From positions 1,495 to 65,494 of the forward strand of contig JAFDWU010000004.1 of assembly GCA_018268315.1 (NCBI GenBank): a stretch of 64,000 bases of DNA, in the 5' to 3' direction. A model generated the notes under the pieces. It saw nothing but the letters and a program-made list of their open reading frames with translations. It ran no database searches and had not been told where the DNA came from. A program made the position numbers and the translations under genes. Source of the DNA: Armatimonadota bacterium (GTDB taxonomy: Bacteria; Armatimonadota; Fimbriimonadia; Fimbriimonadales; Fimbriimonadaceae). How positions within the stretch are numbered: the first letter of the stretch is position 1; each line of letters opens with the position of its first letter. Shown one piece after another: positions 722 to 20,469 of the stretch.

Positions 722-2176
722 TTACATTCCGCGAAGAGCAACTTCGATCGCCTGCAAGGGACCGCGGGCCTTGCGGCAACACTCCTCGTACTCTGACGCC
801 GGATCGCTATCGAAAACGATCCCCGCTCCCGCCTGTACATAGGCCTTTCCGCCCTTGATCATAACCGTCCGGATGGCGATCGCCAATTCTGTGTCGCCGC
901 TAAAACCTATGACCCCTACCGCGCCGGCATAACTTCCCCGCCGGGTCGGTTCCAGCTCATCGATAATCTGCATTGCACGCACCTTCGGCGCGCCGCTCAC
1001 TGTGCCAGCAGGAAATGTCGCGCGAATCAGATCGTAACCATCCAAACCCGGCCGGAGGCGGCAGGTCACGTCGCTCACGATGTGCATCACGTGGCTGTAC
1101 CGCTCGATCAGCATCATCTCATTCAGCTTCACACTGCCGTACTCAGCCACACGGCCAAGGTCGTTACGGCCAAGGTCGACCAGCATGATGTGCTCCGCGC
1201 GCTCTTTCACATCCGCGAGAAGCTCTTCGGCAAGTCGGGCATCTTCAGCCTCGTCCTTGCCTCTTGGCCTCGTGCCGGCGATCGGGCGGACCCGTGCCAC
1301 ACCCTTGTCAAGGCTAACATGAAGCTCTGGCGACGCCCCCACCAAGTCGAAATCGCCAAACCGCAGCAGGAACATATATGGCGAAGGGTTGATGCTGCGC
1401 AAAGCGCGGTAAAGCGTTATCGGATGGGCGGGAAATGCCGTTTCGAAGCGCAGAGAAGGCACCATCTGAATCCCATCCCCGGCCTCAATGTACTTTTTTA
1501 TCCGGCGGACCGAAGTCTCGAAATCAGCGCGGCTTGTGTTGGCGCTCACGTCGCCTGGCTCAAATCTCTCAGTAGGCAGGGCAGGCAGCGGGCCCGCCAG
1601 TTTGGTCACTGTTGCTTCCAACTTTTTCGCCGCTGCTCGATAACCTTCTTCCGAGCCGTCGGCAACGGTCATCACGCGAATCGAGTTCTTGGCGTGATCG
1701 AACACCACCACCACCCCCGTAAGCAACATCGCGGCATCAGGAAGTTCAAGATCATCCTTCGTGCTGTCCGGCAATCGCTCGACGAACCGCACGAAATCGT
1801 AAGCAAGCATTCCGACCACGCCGCCGACAAAGTCCGGCAGCCCTTCGCTGCGATAAGGCTTTTCGCCGATCTCCGCCTTGATAACATCTAAGGCGTCTCG
1901 AAATTCCTTGCGCAGGTCGTAGCAGTGGGTTTTGCTGCCGCGAGTCACCATCGCCTCATCGCCCTTGCTCCAAATTAGGCCGTCGGCGACGCCAAGGATG
2001 CTGTAACGGGCGAGGTTCTCGCCTCCCGTCACACTTTCCAGAAGATAGCTGGGCGAGCCATCGGCGGCCAGTTTCCAATAGGCGCTAAGCGGGGTTTCAA
2101 GGTCTGCCAGGAGGTCGCGCCAAACAACCTGCGGCTTTCCGCGGGCGGCATATTCCTCGTAGCTTGGGTTCAGCAT
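722..2176 (-). CDS. trpE: Anthranilate synthase component I
   Basis: Converts chorismate plus glutamine-derived ammonia to anthranilate, the first committed step of tryptophan synthesis; works with TrpG, which is not in this window. The 484-residue length is normal. The N-terminal domain has the LLES element (residues 45-48) of the tryptophan feedback site. The C-terminal chorismate-binding domain (about 220-478) shows PIAGTRPRG, DLGRNDLGRVA, FPAGTVSGAPKVRA and the closing QAGAGIVFDSDPASEYEE stretch, all diagnostic of TrpE rather than PabB or MenF. It stands alone, divergent from leuD, and its leader holds a promoter and a terminator-like hairpin, which suggests control by attenuation. The start is the ATG giving the usual N-terminus. 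Confidence 0.95.
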   Translation of the reverse strand: MLNPSYEEYAARGKPQVVWRDLLADLETPLSAYWKLAADGSPSYLLESVTGGENLARYSILGVADGLIWSKGDEAMVTRGSKTHCYDLRKEFRDALDVIKAEIGEKPYRSEGLPDFVGGVVGMLAYDFVRFVERLPDSTKDDLELPDAAMLLTGVVVVFDHAKNSIRVMTVADGSEEGYRAAAKKLEATVTKLAGPLPALPTERFEPGDVSANTSRADFETSVRRIKKYIEAGDGIQMVPSLRFETAFPAHPITLYRALRSINPSPYMFLLRFGDFDLVGASPELHVSLDKGVARVRPIAGTRPRGKDEAEDARLAEELLADVKERAEHIMLVDLGRNDLGRVAEYGSVKLNEMMLIERYSHVMHIVSDVTCRLRPGLDGYDLIRATFPAGTVSGAPKVRAMQIIDELEPTRRGSYAGAVGVIGFSGDTELAIAIRTVMIKGGKAYVQAGAGIVFDSDPASEYEECCRKARGPLQAIEVALRGM

Positions 2177-2205
2177 AACGGTGCGACCTGTTGTACCTTG
2201 CCTCT

Positions 2206-2245
2206 AAAAGAAAAACGCCCCGGGAGGTTTGAGGATCACGGGGCG
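2206..2245 (-). terminator. Terminator-like hairpin in trpE leader (possible attenuator)
   Basis: Reading the minus strand, CGCCCCG (2239-2245) pairs with CGGGGCG (2216-2222) and is followed at once by TTTTTCTTTT (2206-2215). This is the form of an intrinsic terminator, but it lies 30-70 nt before the trpE start codon and downstream of a plausible promoter, so it would stop transcription before the gene. No tryptophan-rich leader peptide is visible. The plus strand has no T tract after the hairpin, so it is not a terminator for that direction. Confidence 0.6.
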
Positions 2246-2262
2246 AGCGAGACAACGATTGC

Positions 2263-2292
2263 AGTATATGTGACGTTTTCCTACGTTCGCAA
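2263..2292 (-). promoter_or_regulatory. Putative trpE promoter
   Basis: Minus-strand TTGCGA (2287-2292), an 18-nt spacer, then TATACT (2263-2268). Transcription would begin near 2256, only about 10 nt before the terminator-like hairpin. That leaves little room for a competing antiterminator, so an additional start further upstream in leuD is possible. Confidence 0.4.
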
Positions 2293-2312
2293 AAGCCGTG
2301 CCAAAATGAAGT

Positions 2313-2906
2313 GTGGAGTCATTTCATCAACATTCCGGCAAAATTGCCTTGCTCCTTGAAGACAATATCGACACGGATCGCATCATTCCGGCTCGGTTCC
2401 TTTCGAGGGTGAGCCGCTCCGGCTACGGCGAGCTCCTGTTCAGCGATGTGCGAAAGGATGACTTCCCGCTTGATCGACCCGAGGCAAAAGGCGCTTCTAT
2501 TCTCGTAGTTGGCACGAACTTCGGTTGCGGCTCCAGCCGCGAGCATGCTGTCTGGGCGATTCAACAAGCCGGTTACCGCGCGGTGATCGCGCTGATCAAA
2601 GGCTATAGCCCCGGCTACAGCGATATCTTCCGCCAGAACGCCGCGAACTGCGGCCTTCTGTTGATCGAGCTGCCCGAAGCTGATCACGCCAAGCTGGTTA
2701 AGGCGGGGGTTGGGGCAACTATCACCATCGACTTGCCGAACCAAACGATTGCGGTGGGCCCAGAATCGATTCACTTCGAGATGAACCCCACTAACAAAGA
2801 GGCAATCGTAAACGGGCTTGATCTAATCGGCACCACGCTGGTTTATGACGATGCAATTTCGAACTACGAGGGCCATGCAAAAGCGTTCGTCACTCCTGGC
2901 GCTTAG
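2313..2906 (+). CDS. leuD: 3-isopropylmalate dehydratase small subunit
   Basis: Small (swivelling-domain) subunit of isopropylmalate isomerase, leucine biosynthesis; needs LeuC, which is not adjacent. NIDTDRIIP (residues 18-26) and GCGSSREHA (71-79) are the substrate-binding signatures of the aconitase swivel domain. Its 197 residues match the bacterial LeuD size. The start used is a GTG; an ATG eight bases earlier is out of frame. The 3' end overlaps the DUF192 lipoprotein gene, so the two are probably translated from one message. The C-terminal ~40 residues extend past the core domain. Confidence 0.92.
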   Translation: MESFHQHSGKIALLLEDNIDTDRIIPARFLSRVSRSGYGELLFSDVRKDDFPLDRPEAKGASILVVGTNFGCGSSREHAVWAIQQAGYRAVIALIKGYSPGYSDIFRQNAANCGLLLIELPEADHAKLVKAGVGATITIDLPNQTIAVGPESIHFEMNPTNKEAIVNGLDLIGTTLVYDDAISNYEGHAKAFVTPGA

Positions 2907-15028: not shown

Positions 15029-15604
15029 GTGTTCTTACAGGTAGCTGAATTGAAGGCTCCCCCAGCATGGGATGAAGACAGCCCGGCGATCACTCGTTTT
15101 CTCCGGGGCGATCAAGCTGCGTTTGACACTCTCTATAGAAAGTATTACGGAAGAGTGTTCTCTGTTGCCAGGGGCATTTTGCTAGATTCGGACGAAGCGG
15201 CAGATATCGTGCAGGAAGTTTTCTCACTAGCCTATAAGAACCTAATAAAATTCGACCACGCATCGAAGTTCTCTACGTGGCTTTACCGTATCGCCGTCAA
15301 TCGCAGCATCCAAGAAGCGCGAAAACGAAAGAGATCAACCGTCTCGCTCGACGCCGTTCAGGCTGAGCGGCTGATTAGCCCCGACCAAGAAACTACCATC
15401 GGCGATCCTGAAATCGATTCGGCTCTGGTCCAACTCCATCCGTCAGACCGAATGATGCTCATCCTCCACTACTGGGAGGAACTGAGCCTAGCGGAGATCG
15501 CAACCCTAATGAAGTGCAACCCAAATGCTGCGAAGACGAGACTGTATCGAGCGCGAGCACGGCTGAAGGATATTCTTGAGCAAGCGAGGGCAGATGAAAA
15601 GTAG
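15029..15604 (+). CDS. ECF-family RNA polymerase sigma factor
   Basis: Sigma-70 group 4 factor. Region 2 (about 25-95) has FDTLYRKYYGRVFSVARGIL, the DIVQEVF motif and KFSTWLYRIAVNRSIQEARK; region 4 (about 135-185) has HPSDRMMLILHYWEELSLAE and the helix-turn-helix NPNAAKTRLYRARARL. Length 191. Start is GTG at 15029. The stop overlaps the start of the next gene (ATGAAAAGTAG), the arrangement of a sigma factor with its membrane anti-sigma partner. Target promoters are unknown. Confidence 0.92.
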   Translation: MFLQVAELKAPPAWDEDSPAITRFLRGDQAAFDTLYRKYYGRVFSVARGILLDSDEAADIVQEVFSLAYKNLIKFDHASKFSTWLYRIAVNRSIQEARKRKRSTVSLDAVQAERLISPDQETTIGDPEIDSALVQLHPSDRMMLILHYWEELSLAEIATLMKCNPNAAKTRLYRARARLKDILEQARADEK

Positions 15605-16361
15605 GATTCCCCCTGAGATGGATGCCTTGCTGTGGGCAGCGGCCGAGAGCCGCGACCCTCAGGCCTTGGACCAGTTCCTAGAGCGCCACCCTCAATATAA
15701 GGCTGAACTTACCGAACGCATGGAGACGGTAAGGCGGATGCGGTCTGCGAAGCCGGGCGCGTCGGTGATTCCGTCCTTTGCCCTTCGACCGGTCCCAGCC
15801 ACGCCAGCGTGGACTTATGTGGCGCCAATGGCGGTTGTTGCTGCGGGAATTGCAATTTGGATTGGCACGAATCTAAATCAAATAGCTCGCCAGGAGCCTA
15901 CCGCTCCCGCAACTACTACGATGCCGGCACAGCGGGAAATGAGAGTTGTTCCTCCCCAGCACCAGGAGTATTCGGGCGAGGCCAAGTCTGGCAATGACGG
16001 CGGAGTCGATCAAGGATATCCAGGCGCACGAGGCGCCGGAAGCATTCCTGGTCCTATGCCGCCAAACGCCGAAGCCACAGCAGCTAAATCGCGGGCATTC
16101 GATGTCCGGATCGACGATCTTCCCTTAGCAACGGCTATCAAGACGATCGCTGCAACCGGCAAAGTCGATGTCACGATGGACCCTAAGATGCCTGATGTGC
16201 TGGTCAGCGTGGATTACCACGGGATGACCGCCCTACAGATGCTGCAGGATATGGGCGCCCGATTTGGATTCACTGCTTTTGATGAAGGGAATCACCAAAT
16301 AATCATTATTCCGGCCACGGAAGCGCGTGGCGGTAGCGGAGATACCGCAAAGAAGGGATAA
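15594..16361 (+). CDS. Membrane protein with STN-like domain, probable anti-sigma factor
   Basis: About 255 residues starting at the ATG that overlaps the sigma factor stop. The N-terminal 60 residues are charged and helical (MDALLWAAAESRDPQALDQF), the place where an anti-sigma domain would sit, though no ZAS zinc motif is present. One membrane helix lies at about 72-95. A Pro/Gly-rich linker follows, then a domain at about 168-240 (FDVRIDDLPLATAIKTIAA, then VSVDYHGMTALQMLQDMGAR) matching the secretin/TonB short N-terminal (STN) fold. That domain would lie outside the inner membrane. Role as anti-sigma is inferred from position and topology. Confidence 0.65.
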   Translation: MKSRIPPEMDALLWAAAESRDPQALDQFLERHPQYKAELTERMETVRRMRSAKPGASVIPSFALRPVPATPAWTYVAPMAVVAAGIAIWIGTNLNQIARQEPTAPATTTMPAQREMRVVPPQHQEYSGEAKSGNDGGVDQGYPGARGAGSIPGPMPPNAEATAAKSRAFDVRIDDLPLATAIKTIAATGKVDVTMDPKMPDVLVSVDYHGMTALQMLQDMGARFGFTAFDEGNHQIIIIPATEARGGSGDTAKKG

Positions 16362-16370
16362 TCTCCTTCA

Positions 16371-17096
16371 ATGCCGAGGGTAGAAAAACGTCGCGACGTT
16401 ATCGAAATCCACTGGGAGAACGCTCTCATCTATGGATTCGGTGGCATCTTCTTCTTCCTCATGTGCGGAATGCTCTTCCACTATCGAGGGGAAGGCACAT
16501 TTATTCCTCTTGCCTGGGTTCTCCTGATCATCGGTCTGGCTTGTTTTGGATATGGAGTAAAGCGAGCCATTATGGTTCGAGAAGTTACTTCCCAGGAATA
16601 CACGTGCCCCTACTGCGAGAAGGTTACGGAGTTGACCAAGGTCGCCGAGGCTGATTTCACGTGCGAGCACTGCAATCGCATCATTCCCATTGTCGACGGC
16701 GAAATCATCGACGTCTTTACCGTCAACTGCGGCTTCTGCGGGCATCCAAATTACTACAGCGACAAGACCGAATTTCTTATTTGCGAATTCTGTGACCGTC
16801 AGATTCCGATTACTCGCTCCGATGGCAGCGTTCCCACCGTGCAGCTTCCCAGTTACTACGCGGTGCAGGAAGACAACTCCCTATACGAGCTTGTGCTTGT
16901 GGACCACGGACCCAGGGTTGAAGAACTTACAGACTGCTTGCAGCACATGCTCAGCATTAATCGAAATCAAGTCAAGCAAATGCTGGGCGACCTTCCCGTA
17001 ACGCTTTTGACCGGCATCAGCCGCCGAAAAGCGGAAATGCTTCAGGCGCAGATACTGATGCACGATGGCGAAGCCCAAGCGCGATCATTGACGTAG
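16371..17096 (+). CDS. Membrane zinc-ribbon protein with C-terminal L7/L12-like domain
   Basis: 241 residues. Two membrane helices (about 16-36 and 44-64) are followed by two four-Cys zinc ribbons: Cys79/82 with Cys98/101 and Cys120/123 with Cys138/141 (CPYC-CEHC, CGFC-CEFC). The last 70 residues (171-241) resemble the C-terminal domain of ribosomal protein L7/L12: LYELVLVDHGPRVEELTDCL, then the NQVKQMLGDLPVTLLTGISR stretch and a final helix. This domain occurs as a protein-docking module in some non-ribosomal proteins. It starts 9 nt after the STN protein, so it is part of the sigma-factor operon. Function unknown. Confidence 0.6.
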   Translation: MPRVEKRRDVIEIHWENALIYGFGGIFFFLMCGMLFHYRGEGTFIPLAWVLLIIGLACFGYGVKRAIMVREVTSQEYTCPYCEKVTELTKVAEADFTCEHCNRIIPIVDGEIIDVFTVNCGFCGHPNYYSDKTEFLICEFCDRQIPITRSDGSVPTVQLPSYYAVQEDNSLYELVLVDHGPRVEELTDCLQHMLSINRNQVKQMLGDLPVTLLTGISRRKAEMLQAQILMHDGEAQARSLT

Positions 17097-17160: not shown

Positions 17161-20100
17161 ATGAAGTTTCTCAAGGATTTAGTGCCTTCGATTTCACGCG
17201 CTGCGCGGTCAAAGGCATCATTCGTGGCCATGATGGCCGTCATTGCCGCTCTTCTACCAAGCTTTGCGCTTGCAGGTGAAGGCGATGTCGCTCTGAAGTT
17301 CAGTTCTTCAGACCAGATTTATCTCTATGTCTCGCTAGCTTTCGGCTTCTTGTCATTGTTCATGGCATGGGTGCTCGGCAAGTGGGTCATGGCCCAGAGC
17401 CCAGGCTCTGAGAAGATGCAGGAAGTTGGCCTTGCCATCAAGACCGGCGCAATGGCTTACCTGCGAAAGCAGATAAGCACGATGGTCTACTTCATCGCGC
17501 TGCTGGCAATTGGCCTGTTTCTCCTCTACCAAAGCCCAGCAATCGCCCTCACTTTTGTGCTCGGCGTAGCGGCATCGTACATCGCAGGATATTGCGGCAT
17601 GTACCTCGCAGTCAGCGCGAACATGCGCACTGCCAATGCAGCCCTGACAAGTTATAAGAAGACCCTTGAAGTCGCGTTCCGCGCTGGCGCGGTCGCTGGA
17701 CTTGTAACGGTTGGTATGGGTCTGGTAGGCGCAACCATCATTCTTCTGGTTGCCAAGGCAGACGCGATGCGCCTGCTGGTCGGCTTCGGATTCGGTGGAT
17801 CGCTCGCTGCACTCTTCATGCGTGTTGGTGGCGGCATCTTCACCAAGGCTGCTGACGTAGGCGCTGACCTCGTTGGTAAGGTTGAAGCCGGAATTCCGGA
17901 AGACGATCCCCGCAACCCCGCGGTTATCGCTGACAACGTTGGCGACAACGTTGGCGACTGCGCCGGTATGGCCGCAGACATCTTTGAGTCTTACGAAGTA
18001 ACCCTTGTTGCGGCAATCGTGCTGGGCGCGGCCACCGCATCGATCTTCGACCAAGCAACGGTCATGAAGCTGATCCTCTTCGCCTTGATGGCACGAGGCG
18101 TTGGCATCATCGCCTCCATCATCGGCATCTACACTGTTAAGGGTAGCGATGACGTGGATGTAGACCCGCTGATGCAGATCCGCAAGGGCTTCTACGCTTC
18201 CGCGGTTATCGCCACCGTCGTCGTCGCAGGCCTTGCCTACATGATGATGGGCGGCGATGGCAAGGGCGCCATCCGCACCAGCCAGCTAACCGCGCTTCGC
18301 AACGTGAGCAAGAAGATTGCCGGCGAAGTCCAGGAAGCAATGGGCAGAGTTCAAAAGTCCACCAATAAGAAGGCAGAAGAACTCTCTCCTGAAGACGTAA
18401 TTGCTGACCCCGCCCTGGTGAAGTACGGTTTCACCAAGGACGATGCGGCAGAAGTTTCACGCTATATGAATGCGCGAAACGACGAAGTCCAAGACGTGGA
18501 TTACAACGGCTATCACTTGGCCGATTTCAACGACAAGACGGACGAGACCCTTGACTATGCGATGGTCAATACCGACCAGGCAACCCAGGCGACATCTCCG
18601 TTCATTTCGGTTCGCGATGTCTTCGCAGGTAAGTCCTATGTAGTGGCAAAGATCCACTTCGTCGGGGATTACCCGATGCCAACGACGCCCGATCCAACGC
18701 AGAAGACGCCACCGCCTCCTGTCATGCAGCACGTTGACCGATACCAGTGGATCGGTCCGATCCTGGATGCGGAGTTGCAGAAGGAACTTGACCAAGCCAA
18801 GCAAGGCTTCCAGTCTGGAAAGACCAAGGTTCAAGTCATCGAGGAAGGCTCCTCTGTAGTCAATGTCTACACGAACAAGGCAACTCACAAGCTTCTGTTA
18901 GCGATGTCTGGCGGTCCGGCAAGGCCCGAGCAGCTTCGCGGCAATGCTAAGGTTCCCAGCCAGTACCTGCGAATGAACGAGAAGACGGCTGAGGACCTTT
19001 ACAAGAAGGATCCGCAGAAGTTCCAGGTTCGCCAAGCCACCGACACCGTCGACCTCGCAATGGTTGACTCCAAGGTTGTCGAGTGGTGGAAGTTCTGGCT
19101 CGCTCTCACGTTCGGCATCGGCATGGCCTTCGCCATCGAAATGCTGACCGACTACTATGTATCGACCCACAAGCGGCCGGTGCGAGAAGTTGCGGGCGTA
19201 TCGAGCGCAGGCGCGGCGCCAATGATTATCAGCGGCTTTGCCTATGCGGCTGAGTCGAGCGTGTTCATGGTTTTCTCGATCGTCGTAGCGCTGCTTATGC
19301 CAATGATCCTCTTCCCGCCAGCCATATACGGCTCGTGGATTCTGAGCTTCTACGGCATCGCGCTCGTCGGTCTCGGCCTTCTAACCACCACCGGCTTCGT
19401 GCTGGCAATGGACACCTTCGGACCGATTTCGGACAACGCCCAGGGCGTATACGAAATGTCCGGCGAGGGCCACGACAACGAATACGGCTCCAAGGCTGTA
19501 CAGCGACTTGACGCTGCAGGCAACACCACCAAGGCTCTTACCAAGGGCTTTGCGATTGCCACTGCGGTTGTCGCCGCTGTCGCACTGTTCCACTCGTTCC
19601 TTGAGGACGCCAGATTGCAGAGTGTCGGTCTTCGACTCGACATTCCAGAAATCTTCCTCGGCCTCATGATTGGTGGCGCCGCTCCTTATCTGTTCTCTTC
19701 GAGCACGATCAAGGCAGTTGGCCGCGCAGCCTTCGACCTCATCAACGAAGTTCGACGCCAGTTCCGCGAAGATGCGGGAATCATGGCAGGAACCTCGAAG
19801 CCGGACTACGCAAGGTGCGTATCCATCGTTACCGCTGCAGCGCAGCGCGAGCTGATGGGTCCTGCAATCCTCGCGATTGCCCTCCCGATGGCGGTTGCCT
19901 TCGGCTTTGCCATCGGCAAGCCGACGACGCAGATCGGCGATCACACCTACAACCTGTACGGCGCACAGGCCCTTGGCGGCTTCCTGGCGGGAGCGATCCT
20001 GTCCGGCCAGCTCATGGCGGTTCTGCTCGCTAACTCGGGCGGTATGTGGGATAACGCGAAGAAGCTCATCGAAGACGGCTTGTACGGCGGCAAGGGCACC

Positions 20101-20469
20101 GACGCTCACAAGGCGGCGGTTGTCTGCGATACCGTTGGCGACCCGTTCAAGGATACGGCCGGCCCGGCGCTTAACCCGCTGATCAAGGTTATGAACCTTG
20201 TGGCCCTGCTCCTGGCTCCGGTGGTTATCCAGCCGTTCCCGGCGGCAACGCTGATCGGCATCACCCTGGCTTGTGTCGTCTCACTTGCCTTCTCCATCTG
20301 GTGGTCTGGCCGAACTTCGATGTCGGACAGCATGACCGGTGGCGCTGCCTCTGCGGCAGAGCATGCCAGCATGACTGCGGCAGCAGCTGAGAAGATCGCA
20401 AAGGCTGCAGAGCCGGCAGCGGAATCGAAGAAGAAGCTGCACATCGACGACGAACCGGAAGAAAAGTAA
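17161..20469 (+). CDS. hppA: Membrane-bound K+-independent H+-pyrophosphatase with large insertion
   Basis: Couples hydrolysis of pyrophosphate to proton export at the inner membrane. Signatures include DVGADLVGKVEAGIPEDDPR, DNVGDNVGDCAGMAADIFES, FGPISDNAQGVYEM, and CDTVGDPFKDTAGPALNPL. In GNTTKALTKG the residues Lys791 and Thr794 are those of K+-independent, proton-pumping enzymes (K+-dependent ones have Ala at the first). At 1102 residues it is 300-400 longer than usual. The excess is mainly residues 365-640, hydrophilic, between the eighth and ninth membrane helices by topology, hence probably outside the cytoplasmic membrane. An N-terminal signal-like segment (to about 38) is also present. 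The C-terminus is Ala/Glu/Lys-rich. Confidence 0.93.
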   Translation: MKFLKDLVPSISRAARSKASFVAMMAVIAALLPSFALAGEGDVALKFSSSDQIYLYVSLAFGFLSLFMAWVLGKWVMAQSPGSEKMQEVGLAIKTGAMAYLRKQISTMVYFIALLAIGLFLLYQSPAIALTFVLGVAASYIAGYCGMYLAVSANMRTANAALTSYKKTLEVAFRAGAVAGLVTVGMGLVGATIILLVAKADAMRLLVGFGFGGSLAALFMRVGGGIFTKAADVGADLVGKVEAGIPEDDPRNPAVIADNVGDNVGDCAGMAADIFESYEVTLVAAIVLGAATASIFDQATVMKLILFALMARGVGIIASIIGIYTVKGSDDVDVDPLMQIRKGFYASAVIATVVVAGLAYMMMGGDGKGAIRTSQLTALRNVSKKIAGEVQEAMGRVQKSTNKKAEELSPEDVIADPALVKYGFTKDDAAEVSRYMNARNDEVQDVDYNGYHLADFNDKTDETLDYAMVNTDQATQATSPFISVRDVFAGKSYVVAKIHFVGDYPMPTTPDPTQKTPPPPVMQHVDRYQWIGPILDAELQKELDQAKQGFQSGKTKVQVIEEGSSVVNVYTNKATHKLLLAMSGGPARPEQLRGNAKVPSQYLRMNEKTAEDLYKKDPQKFQVRQATDTVDLAMVDSKVVEWWKFWLALTFGIGMAFAIEMLTDYYVSTHKRPVREVAGVSSAGAAPMIISGFAYAAESSVFMVFSIVVALLMPMILFPPAIYGSWILSFYGIALVGLGLLTTTGFVLAMDTFGPISDNAQGVYEMSGEGHDNEYGSKAVQRLDAAGNTTKALTKGFAIATAVVAAVALFHSFLEDARLQSVGLRLDIPEIFLGLMIGGAAPYLFSSSTIKAVGRAAFDLINEVRRQFREDAGIMAGTSKPDYARCVSIVTAAAQRELMGPAILAIALPMAVAFGFAIGKPTTQIGDHTYNLYGAQALGGFLAGAILSGQLMAVLLANSGGMWDNAKKLIEDGLYGGKGTDAHKAAVVCDTVGDPFKDTAGPALNPLIKVMNLVALLLAPVVIQPFPAATLIGITLACVVSLAFSIWWSGRTSMSDSMTGGAASAAEHASMTAAAAEKIAKAAEPAAESKKKLHIDDEPEEK

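Follow-up and report, generated by a model that had tools for sequence, protein, structure and literature searches.

A conserved pair of an ECF sigma factor and a putative STN-bearing anti-sigma factor in the Armatimonadota, and a neighbouring membrane protein with zinc ribbons and an L7/L12-like domain

Three consecutive genes of a Fimbriimonadaceae genome (phylum Armatimonadota, genome size 2.8 Mb) probably encode an ECF sigma factor, its transmembrane anti-sigma factor and, in the third gene, an independently conserved and often co-located membrane adaptor. The first two genes are best read as a variant of cell-surface signalling in which the anti-sigma factor of the pair carries an STN sensor in the periplasm. 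The locus lies in a window of 64,000 nucleotides (the whole stretch of DNA that was analysed), with a divergent gene upstream that we identified as metH-like by reading and a membrane pyrophosphatase gene downstream. In the preliminary description of this DNA, it was suggested that the three genes could together relay a signal from the envelope or an outer-membrane channel to transcription or to ribosomes. The genes and folds it described are real, the open reading frames, the STN fold, the L7/L12 fold and the cysteine ribbons all being confirmed, and its account of the spacing is also correct: the ATG start of gene 2 gives an 11-nt overlap with the end of the sigma gene (a longer alternative TTG start lies at 15576), and gene 3 starts 9 nt 3' of gene 2. 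The features are listed here in window positions.

15029..15604, + strand: ECF sigma factor, 191 aa, GTG start (Pfam Sigma70_r2 1.3e-16, Sigma70_r4_2 3.3e-14; TIGR02937 2.2e-28)
15594..16361, + strand: protein 2, putative membrane anti-sigma factor with periplasmic STN domain, 255 aa, ATG start (overlap with the sigma gene, 40/40 pairing, AF2 model)
15594..15761, + strand: protein 2 N-terminal three-helix cytoplasmic domain, residues 1-56, putative anti-sigma domain without zinc ligands (pLDDT ~95; invariant residues)
15819..15887, + strand: protein 2 single transmembrane helix, residues 76-98 (AF2; family-average K/R 4.0 before and 2.1 after)
16089..16319, + strand: protein 2 STN/N0 domain, residues 166-242 (AF2, Foldseek, VIA-align, profile-profile comparison)
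16371..17096, + strand: protein 3, membrane protein with double zinc ribbon and L7/L12 C-terminal-domain-like domain, 241 aa (alignment, Pfam, profile, fold)
16389..16583, + strand: protein 3 two long helices, residues 7-37 and 45-71, predicted as two membrane passes, N-in/C-in (AF2; positive-inside rule)
16605..16673, + strand: protein 3 zinc ribbon 1, C79-x2-C82...C98-x2-C101 (invariant in 54 sequences)
16728..16793, + strand: protein 3 zinc ribbon 2, C120-x2-C123...C138-x2-C141 (invariant in 54 sequences)
16881..17084, + strand: protein 3 L7/L12 C-terminal-domain-like domain, residues 171-238 (Pfam, profile, fold)
17161..20469, + strand: membrane pyrophosphatase HppA, 1102 aa, with large internal insert (PF03030 1.2e-233)

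The sigma factor is an ordinary one, as first described: it contains sigma-70 regions 2 and 4 and no region 3, with PF04542 and PF08281 above cut-off (E 1e-16 and 3e-14), which makes it an ECF factor. In the genome collection, relatives of the locus belong nearly all to the Armatimonadota and mostly to the Fimbriimonadaceae, judging from a scan with a narrowed alignment and from the record titles. One record, L217, is titled 'Methanoregulaceae archaeon isolate SJ84' and bears a typical Fimbriimonadaceae locus; its title is apparently wrong. Protein 2 is encoded by the next gene after the sigma gene in all 40 related loci examined (38 by clustering, and the remaining two genomes by a whole-genome search that placed protein 2 there), mostly with an overlap of 4 nt, and because it is kept in 40 of 40 loci we do not regard this arrangement as due to chance. 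A search upstream of the operons for a shared ECF promoter gave none that was usable, the best spaced pair being present in 4 of 38 regions and in 3 in shuffles, and our literature search found no papers on Armatimonadetes ECF/anti-sigma systems.

The assignment of an STN domain to protein 2 depends on its family rather than on the single sequence, which has no significant match to Pfam or other families. Single-sequence Pfam searches of the window's proteins detected neither the STN nor the L12 domain, while family-level scans gave both. The AF2 model of protein 2, built from an alignment of 38 orthologues, has two confident parts, residues 1-51 (three helices, pLDDT ~95) and about 166-242 (pLDDT ~97), the latter with beta-alpha-beta-beta-alpha-beta-beta topology; a low-confidence, proline-rich linker (residues ~99-158) lies between the membrane helix and this second part. 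Foldseek and VIA-align matched residues 166-242 to secretin N0 domains, to the signalling domains of FecA, FoxA and FpvA and to the C-terminal STN parts of known or putative anti-sigma factors, including BDI_1681 (4m0n; Z 9.9, rmsd 1.7 A over 73 residues) and PupR (6ovk; Z 9.4). Several phage baseplate chains also reach Z 8-9, so the fold alone would not settle the identity of the domain. Profile-profile comparison, which had been proposed as a check when the domain was first described, gave 97.1% (E 6e-11) against 30 STN domains from relatives, with unrelated controls below 3%, and together with the fold matches this confirms the STN domain, which by the predicted topology lies outside the membrane; the model, the structural searches and the profile comparison agree. 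Pfam detects STN in single sequences of 2 of the 38 members (best E 0.0032), and one family member matches the NCBIfam 'anti-sigma factor' family (E 6e-4) while others match secretin families.

The N-terminal domain of protein 2 is strongly constrained, with W14, R31, P33 and R42 invariant. Its match to zf-HC2 is not significant (profile-profile 2.6%, E 0.018), it has no significant sequence match among solved structures, and the VIA-align rows for the protein covered the STN part only. Like the zf-HC2 anti-sigma factors of the RsrA/ChrR type, protein 2 is encoded directly behind an ECF sigma gene and has a small cytoplasmic domain made of helices, and in the register of the weak alignment the HxxxCxxC position falls on FxxRYPxxR. 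Unlike them it lacks zinc ligands: the cysteines of the HxxxCxxC site are missing from the family consensus, which sets the domain apart from zf-HC2. A family of the same order (f2) is informative here. In two of its loci (L194 and L195), an ECF sigma factor is followed by a protein in which Pfam detects both an N-terminal zf-HC2 domain and a C-terminal STN domain, and close relatives of this protein occur in about 15 f2 genomes. A protein that can be recognised as an anti-sigma factor thus shows the succession of anti-sigma domain, membrane and STN. Against the profile of the source sigma factor, whose own members reach 223-312 bits, the f2 sigma factors obtain only about 90-119 and do not stand out from other ECF factors; we therefore treat the f2 pair as an analogue with no demonstrated orthology.

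The layout of protein 2 is not without precedent, since anti-sigma factors of the PupR/FecR type have a periplasmic part ending in an STN subdomain (PMC7186176, PMC11637429). In PupR and FoxR this subdomain makes contact with an outer-membrane transducer through the latter's STN-like signalling domain, and the anti-sigma factor is thereby protected from proteolysis (PMC7186176, PMC11637429). The PupI/PupR/PupB and FecI/FecR/FecA systems share with genes 1 and 2 an ECF sigma factor and a single-pass anti-sigma factor with a periplasmic, C-terminal STN domain. The differences are considerable, however. Protein 2 lacks the FecR/CJM beta-subdomain between membrane and STN and has the proline-rich linker in its place (none of the 38 members has a FecR Pfam match), its N-terminal domain is unrelated by sequence, the source genome has no STN-bearing TonB transducer that we could find, and genes 1 and 2 are a conserved single-copy pair across the family. 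Read in this way, genes 1 and 2 add a new variant to the known STN-tipped anti-sigma systems.

The genes that flank the pair are envelope genes. Upstream, 25 of the 40 loci encode a PMT-type glycosyltransferase and, divergently, an exported protein that combines DUF2092 and thioredoxin domains, and in 12 of the 40 the pair is adjoined upstream by a gene for an exported protein of about 750 aa whose N-terminus is STN by profile (96.7%). This last family, exemplified by L069:4087-6414 (+) and L065:9389-11740 (-), belongs to no Pfam family and is highly paralogous in Fimbriimonadaceae relatives, with up to 23 matched stretches per genome. It was not detected in the source genome and therefore cannot be the general partner of the pair. 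The two Plug-domain proteins of the source genome do not coincide with an STN match, and with no STN-bearing TonB receptor found there the partner must be another kind of protein, such as a secretin, a pilus component or an exported STN protein. Candidates of this kind exist in the genome, namely a secretin that contains an STN domain and several STN-only exported proteins, and the partner of protein 2 may be among them.

Among the STN proteins of the source genome are three small, very similar exported ones (L121:512-1132 and 1324-1902; L123:1231-1821 (-)), one of which adjoins genes that on reading are PilO/PilP-like. L121 also carries two adjacent open reading frames, 2025-2375 (-) and 2363-2650 (-), that read like tandem ClpS genes. 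In the same genome (C8; L196:3877-5437), the gene of a zf-HC2 membrane protein precedes that of an exported protein matching STN and FecR_C (PF16344), so that the anti-sigma-like and STN modules are divided between two genes.

We suggest that the helical N-terminus of protein 2 (residues 1-56) would bind and hold the sigma factor in the cytoplasm, while the periplasmic STN domain would sense the state of a partner in the envelope; pairing with the STN domain of a secretin, or of some other exported STN protein, is the likeliest means. An altered contact could then set the sigma factor free to transcribe envelope genes, regulated proteolysis of protein 2 being the probable route. A path from the envelope to transcription was part of the preliminary description; with the STN domain placed outside the membrane on a sigma-linked membrane protein, such a path through genes 1 and 2 is the likeliest reading. 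Protein 2 might alternatively be an envelope assembly protein, its STN domain packing into a secretin or type IV pilus complex, that is merely co-transcribed with the sigma factor. Secretin-type machines commonly contain STN domains, a DUF1559 pseudopilin-like gene directly follows protein 2 in 12 loci, and the STN-only proteins of the source genome, with one beside PilO/PilP-like genes, also fit such a role. The strict pairing with an ECF sigma factor in all 40 loci is not what this would predict, nor is the order of cytoplasmic helical domain, membrane helix and periplasmic part, which is typical of anti-sigma factors, and the zf-HC2-STN protein of f2 counts against it as well. We consider an assembly role unlikely, and retain the sigma/anti-sigma pair.

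Protein 3 has the composition first claimed for it, namely membrane helices, CxxC zinc ribbons and a cytoplasmic L7/L12-like domain. Its AF2 model (pLDDT 92) consists of two long helices, two zinc-ribbon-like hairpins and a C-terminal domain. Eight cysteines (C79, 82, 98, 101, 120, 123, 138 and 141) are invariant in 54 sequences and form the four CxxC pairs of a double zinc ribbon, a predicted metal site, with two pairs in each ribbon. The means of K/R residues (2.6 at the N-terminus, 0.9 in the loop and 2.2 after the second helix) follow a positive-inside pattern that places the ribbons and the L12-like domain, by prediction, in the cytoplasm. PF00542 matches 47 of the 54 family members (best 1e-7), the family profile matches E. 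coli L7/L12 with E 4e-8, and residues 171-238 superimpose on 1ctf with Z 13.1 and rmsd 0.9 A over 68 residues, so that the profile and fold check that had been suggested for residues 171-241 returns the L7/L12 C-terminal domain over 171-238. We found no curated Pfam or NCBIfam model spanning the whole protein, and in the literature search no paper on a membrane L12/zinc-ribbon protein. It is, in our reading, an unnamed, phylum-conserved membrane adaptor.

With the ribosomal L7/L12 C-terminal domain (PF00542) protein 3 shares the fold, homology at the profile level and the residues P91 and K84; it differs in being fused to membrane helices and zinc ribbons, in lacking the L10-binding N-terminus and in having most of the basic factor-binding residues replaced. 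The structural alignment of residues 171-238 with L12 53-120 is gapless and gives a residue offset of 118. At the equivalents of K65, K70, R73 and K81, K or R is present in 8, 1, 0 and 1 of 52 sequences, while 18 ribosomal L12 proteins from the same genomes have K, K, R (K in one) and K; the conserved factor-binding residues of a ribosomal L7/L12 are thus mostly replaced in the protein 3 family. The K84 equivalent is K or R in 51 of 52. The L12 signature GLGLKEAK is changed to ALNRNQVK in most members, and this new motif is itself strongly conserved. K65, K70, K81 and K84 are reported to be highly conserved in bacterial L12, and mutations of K65 and K70 impair EF-Tu binding (PMC10602876). Docking of the classical elongation factors is therefore disfavoured. 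The domain is under constraint, to judge from the alignments, for a surface unlike the ribosomal one, and the exchange of the basic surface for the ALNRNQVK patch suggests that protein 3 probably binds something other than EF-Tu or EF-G. L12-type domains outside the ribosome include the L12/ClpS insertions in vWA-MoxR conflict systems (PMC7159879) and the Ribosomal_L12 domain of one cyanobacterial orthocaspase (PMC8283722); these have other architectures, and the portions of those papers available to us mention no fusion to a membrane anchor or zinc ribbons.

Several other roles for protein 3 may be weighed against that of an independent adaptor, which would hold its double zinc ribbon and L12-type protein-binding domain in the cytoplasm by two helices. 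As a tethered stalk protein it would recruit translation GTPases or ribosomes to the membrane, which would agree with the clear L12 homology, the conserved K84 and the place of gene 3 in family f5, where obg-, nadD- and rsfS-like genes come shortly before it; given the near absence of K or R at K65, K70 and R73 and the loss of the GLGLKEAK signature, we find this quite improbable. Still harder to credit is a membrane ClpS-like protease adaptor, for example for degradation of the anti-sigma factor. The L12 C-terminal domain and ClpS do share a fold, and ClpS chains reach Z 9-10.5 against protein 3, but L12 structures score higher (Z 13) and the sequence profile matches L12 only, on which ground membership in ClpS is rejected. 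There is also some reason to consider an accessory factor of the membrane pyrophosphatase, as hppA is the next gene after gene 3 in 26 of 54 loci, in two families, and the HppA insert of one genome (G080) has a weak L12-CTD match. Half of the gene 3 loci, including all those examined in f2, f8 and f12, nevertheless have no hppA neighbour, and the insert, which we take to be periplasmic from the canonical topology, would lie on the side opposite to the protein 3 domain; such a role seems to us rather improbable. A further idea, itself unlikely, is that the Armatimonadota have put the stalk factor-binding domain on a double-zinc-ribbon scaffold at the cytoplasmic membrane and re-specified its surface for a new client, which might be another GTPase, RNA polymerase or a complex in the membrane. 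The result would be a phylum-wide, hitherto unnamed system for docking at the membrane that in the Fimbriimonadia came to be linked to the STN-sensing sigma switch.

The HppA insert itself is large and splits the PF03030 match, the second stretch beginning at residue 637 (17161-20469; also L083:8051-11449). In G080 the L7/L12-CTD match covers residues 596-645 (E 1.4e-4 in the genome search and 0.0026 in Pfam, below the curated cut-off), although immediately upstream this genome has a gene 3 whose product contains an L12 domain as well.

Whether gene 3 belongs with the pair was judged from its distribution. Among the 38 loci of the source's family, 33 have gene 3 linked to the pair, and in the other 5 it lies elsewhere in the genome. 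In 17 of the linked loci it is adjacent, in 13 a single gene intervenes (in most cases a DUF1559 pseudopilin-like one), in 1 two genes intervene, and in 2 protein 2 was unclustered. Outside the family it is unlinked in 16 of 16 loci examined. Full-length relatives of gene 3 were found by profile search in about nine families of the phylum, whereas no close relative of protein 2 was detected outside two families by a single-sequence search, which is the less sensitive method. In two f5 genomes gene 3 is away from the sigma pair and follows the obg-, nadD- and rsfS-like genes. In the f5 loci L083 and L082, genes in an order resembling obg - nadD - rsfS precede one for a TPR/membrane protein, after which come gene 3 and hppA; these surroundings may be a ribosome-side neighbourhood. 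In one genus (g21) gene 3 is shortened to about 153 aa, keeping the ribbons and losing the L12 domain (L111:6892-7353 (+), L112:6157-6615 (-)), and this short form sits right beside the sigma pair.

The survey of gene neighbourhoods thus upholds one half of the original proposal, the order of sigma factor and protein 2, and fails to uphold the other, a relay that takes in gene 3. The 9-nt spacing at the source locus and the linkage in most family loci would suit a single unit carrying an envelope signal to transcription and, through protein 3, to ribosomes. Such a relay is unsupported because gene 3 is separable from the pair, in same-family and distant genomes alike, and far more widespread; the replaced factor-binding residues and the loss of the L12 domain from a copy right beside the pair speak against it too. 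A dedicated three-part relay is accordingly very unlikely. We conclude that gene 3 serves a function of its own and probably stands beside the pair as an independent gene, with co-regulation at the source locus possible.

Cell-surface signalling by STN-tipped anti-sigma factors is known from iron uptake in proteobacteria. What we describe would mean that a similar STN-sigma system is conserved in single copy in a phylum that has been little studied. In the protein 3 family a domain of the ribosomal stalk has clearly been put to another use at the membrane, and its surface there is new and strongly conserved; ALNRNQVK offers a defined motif for mutation.
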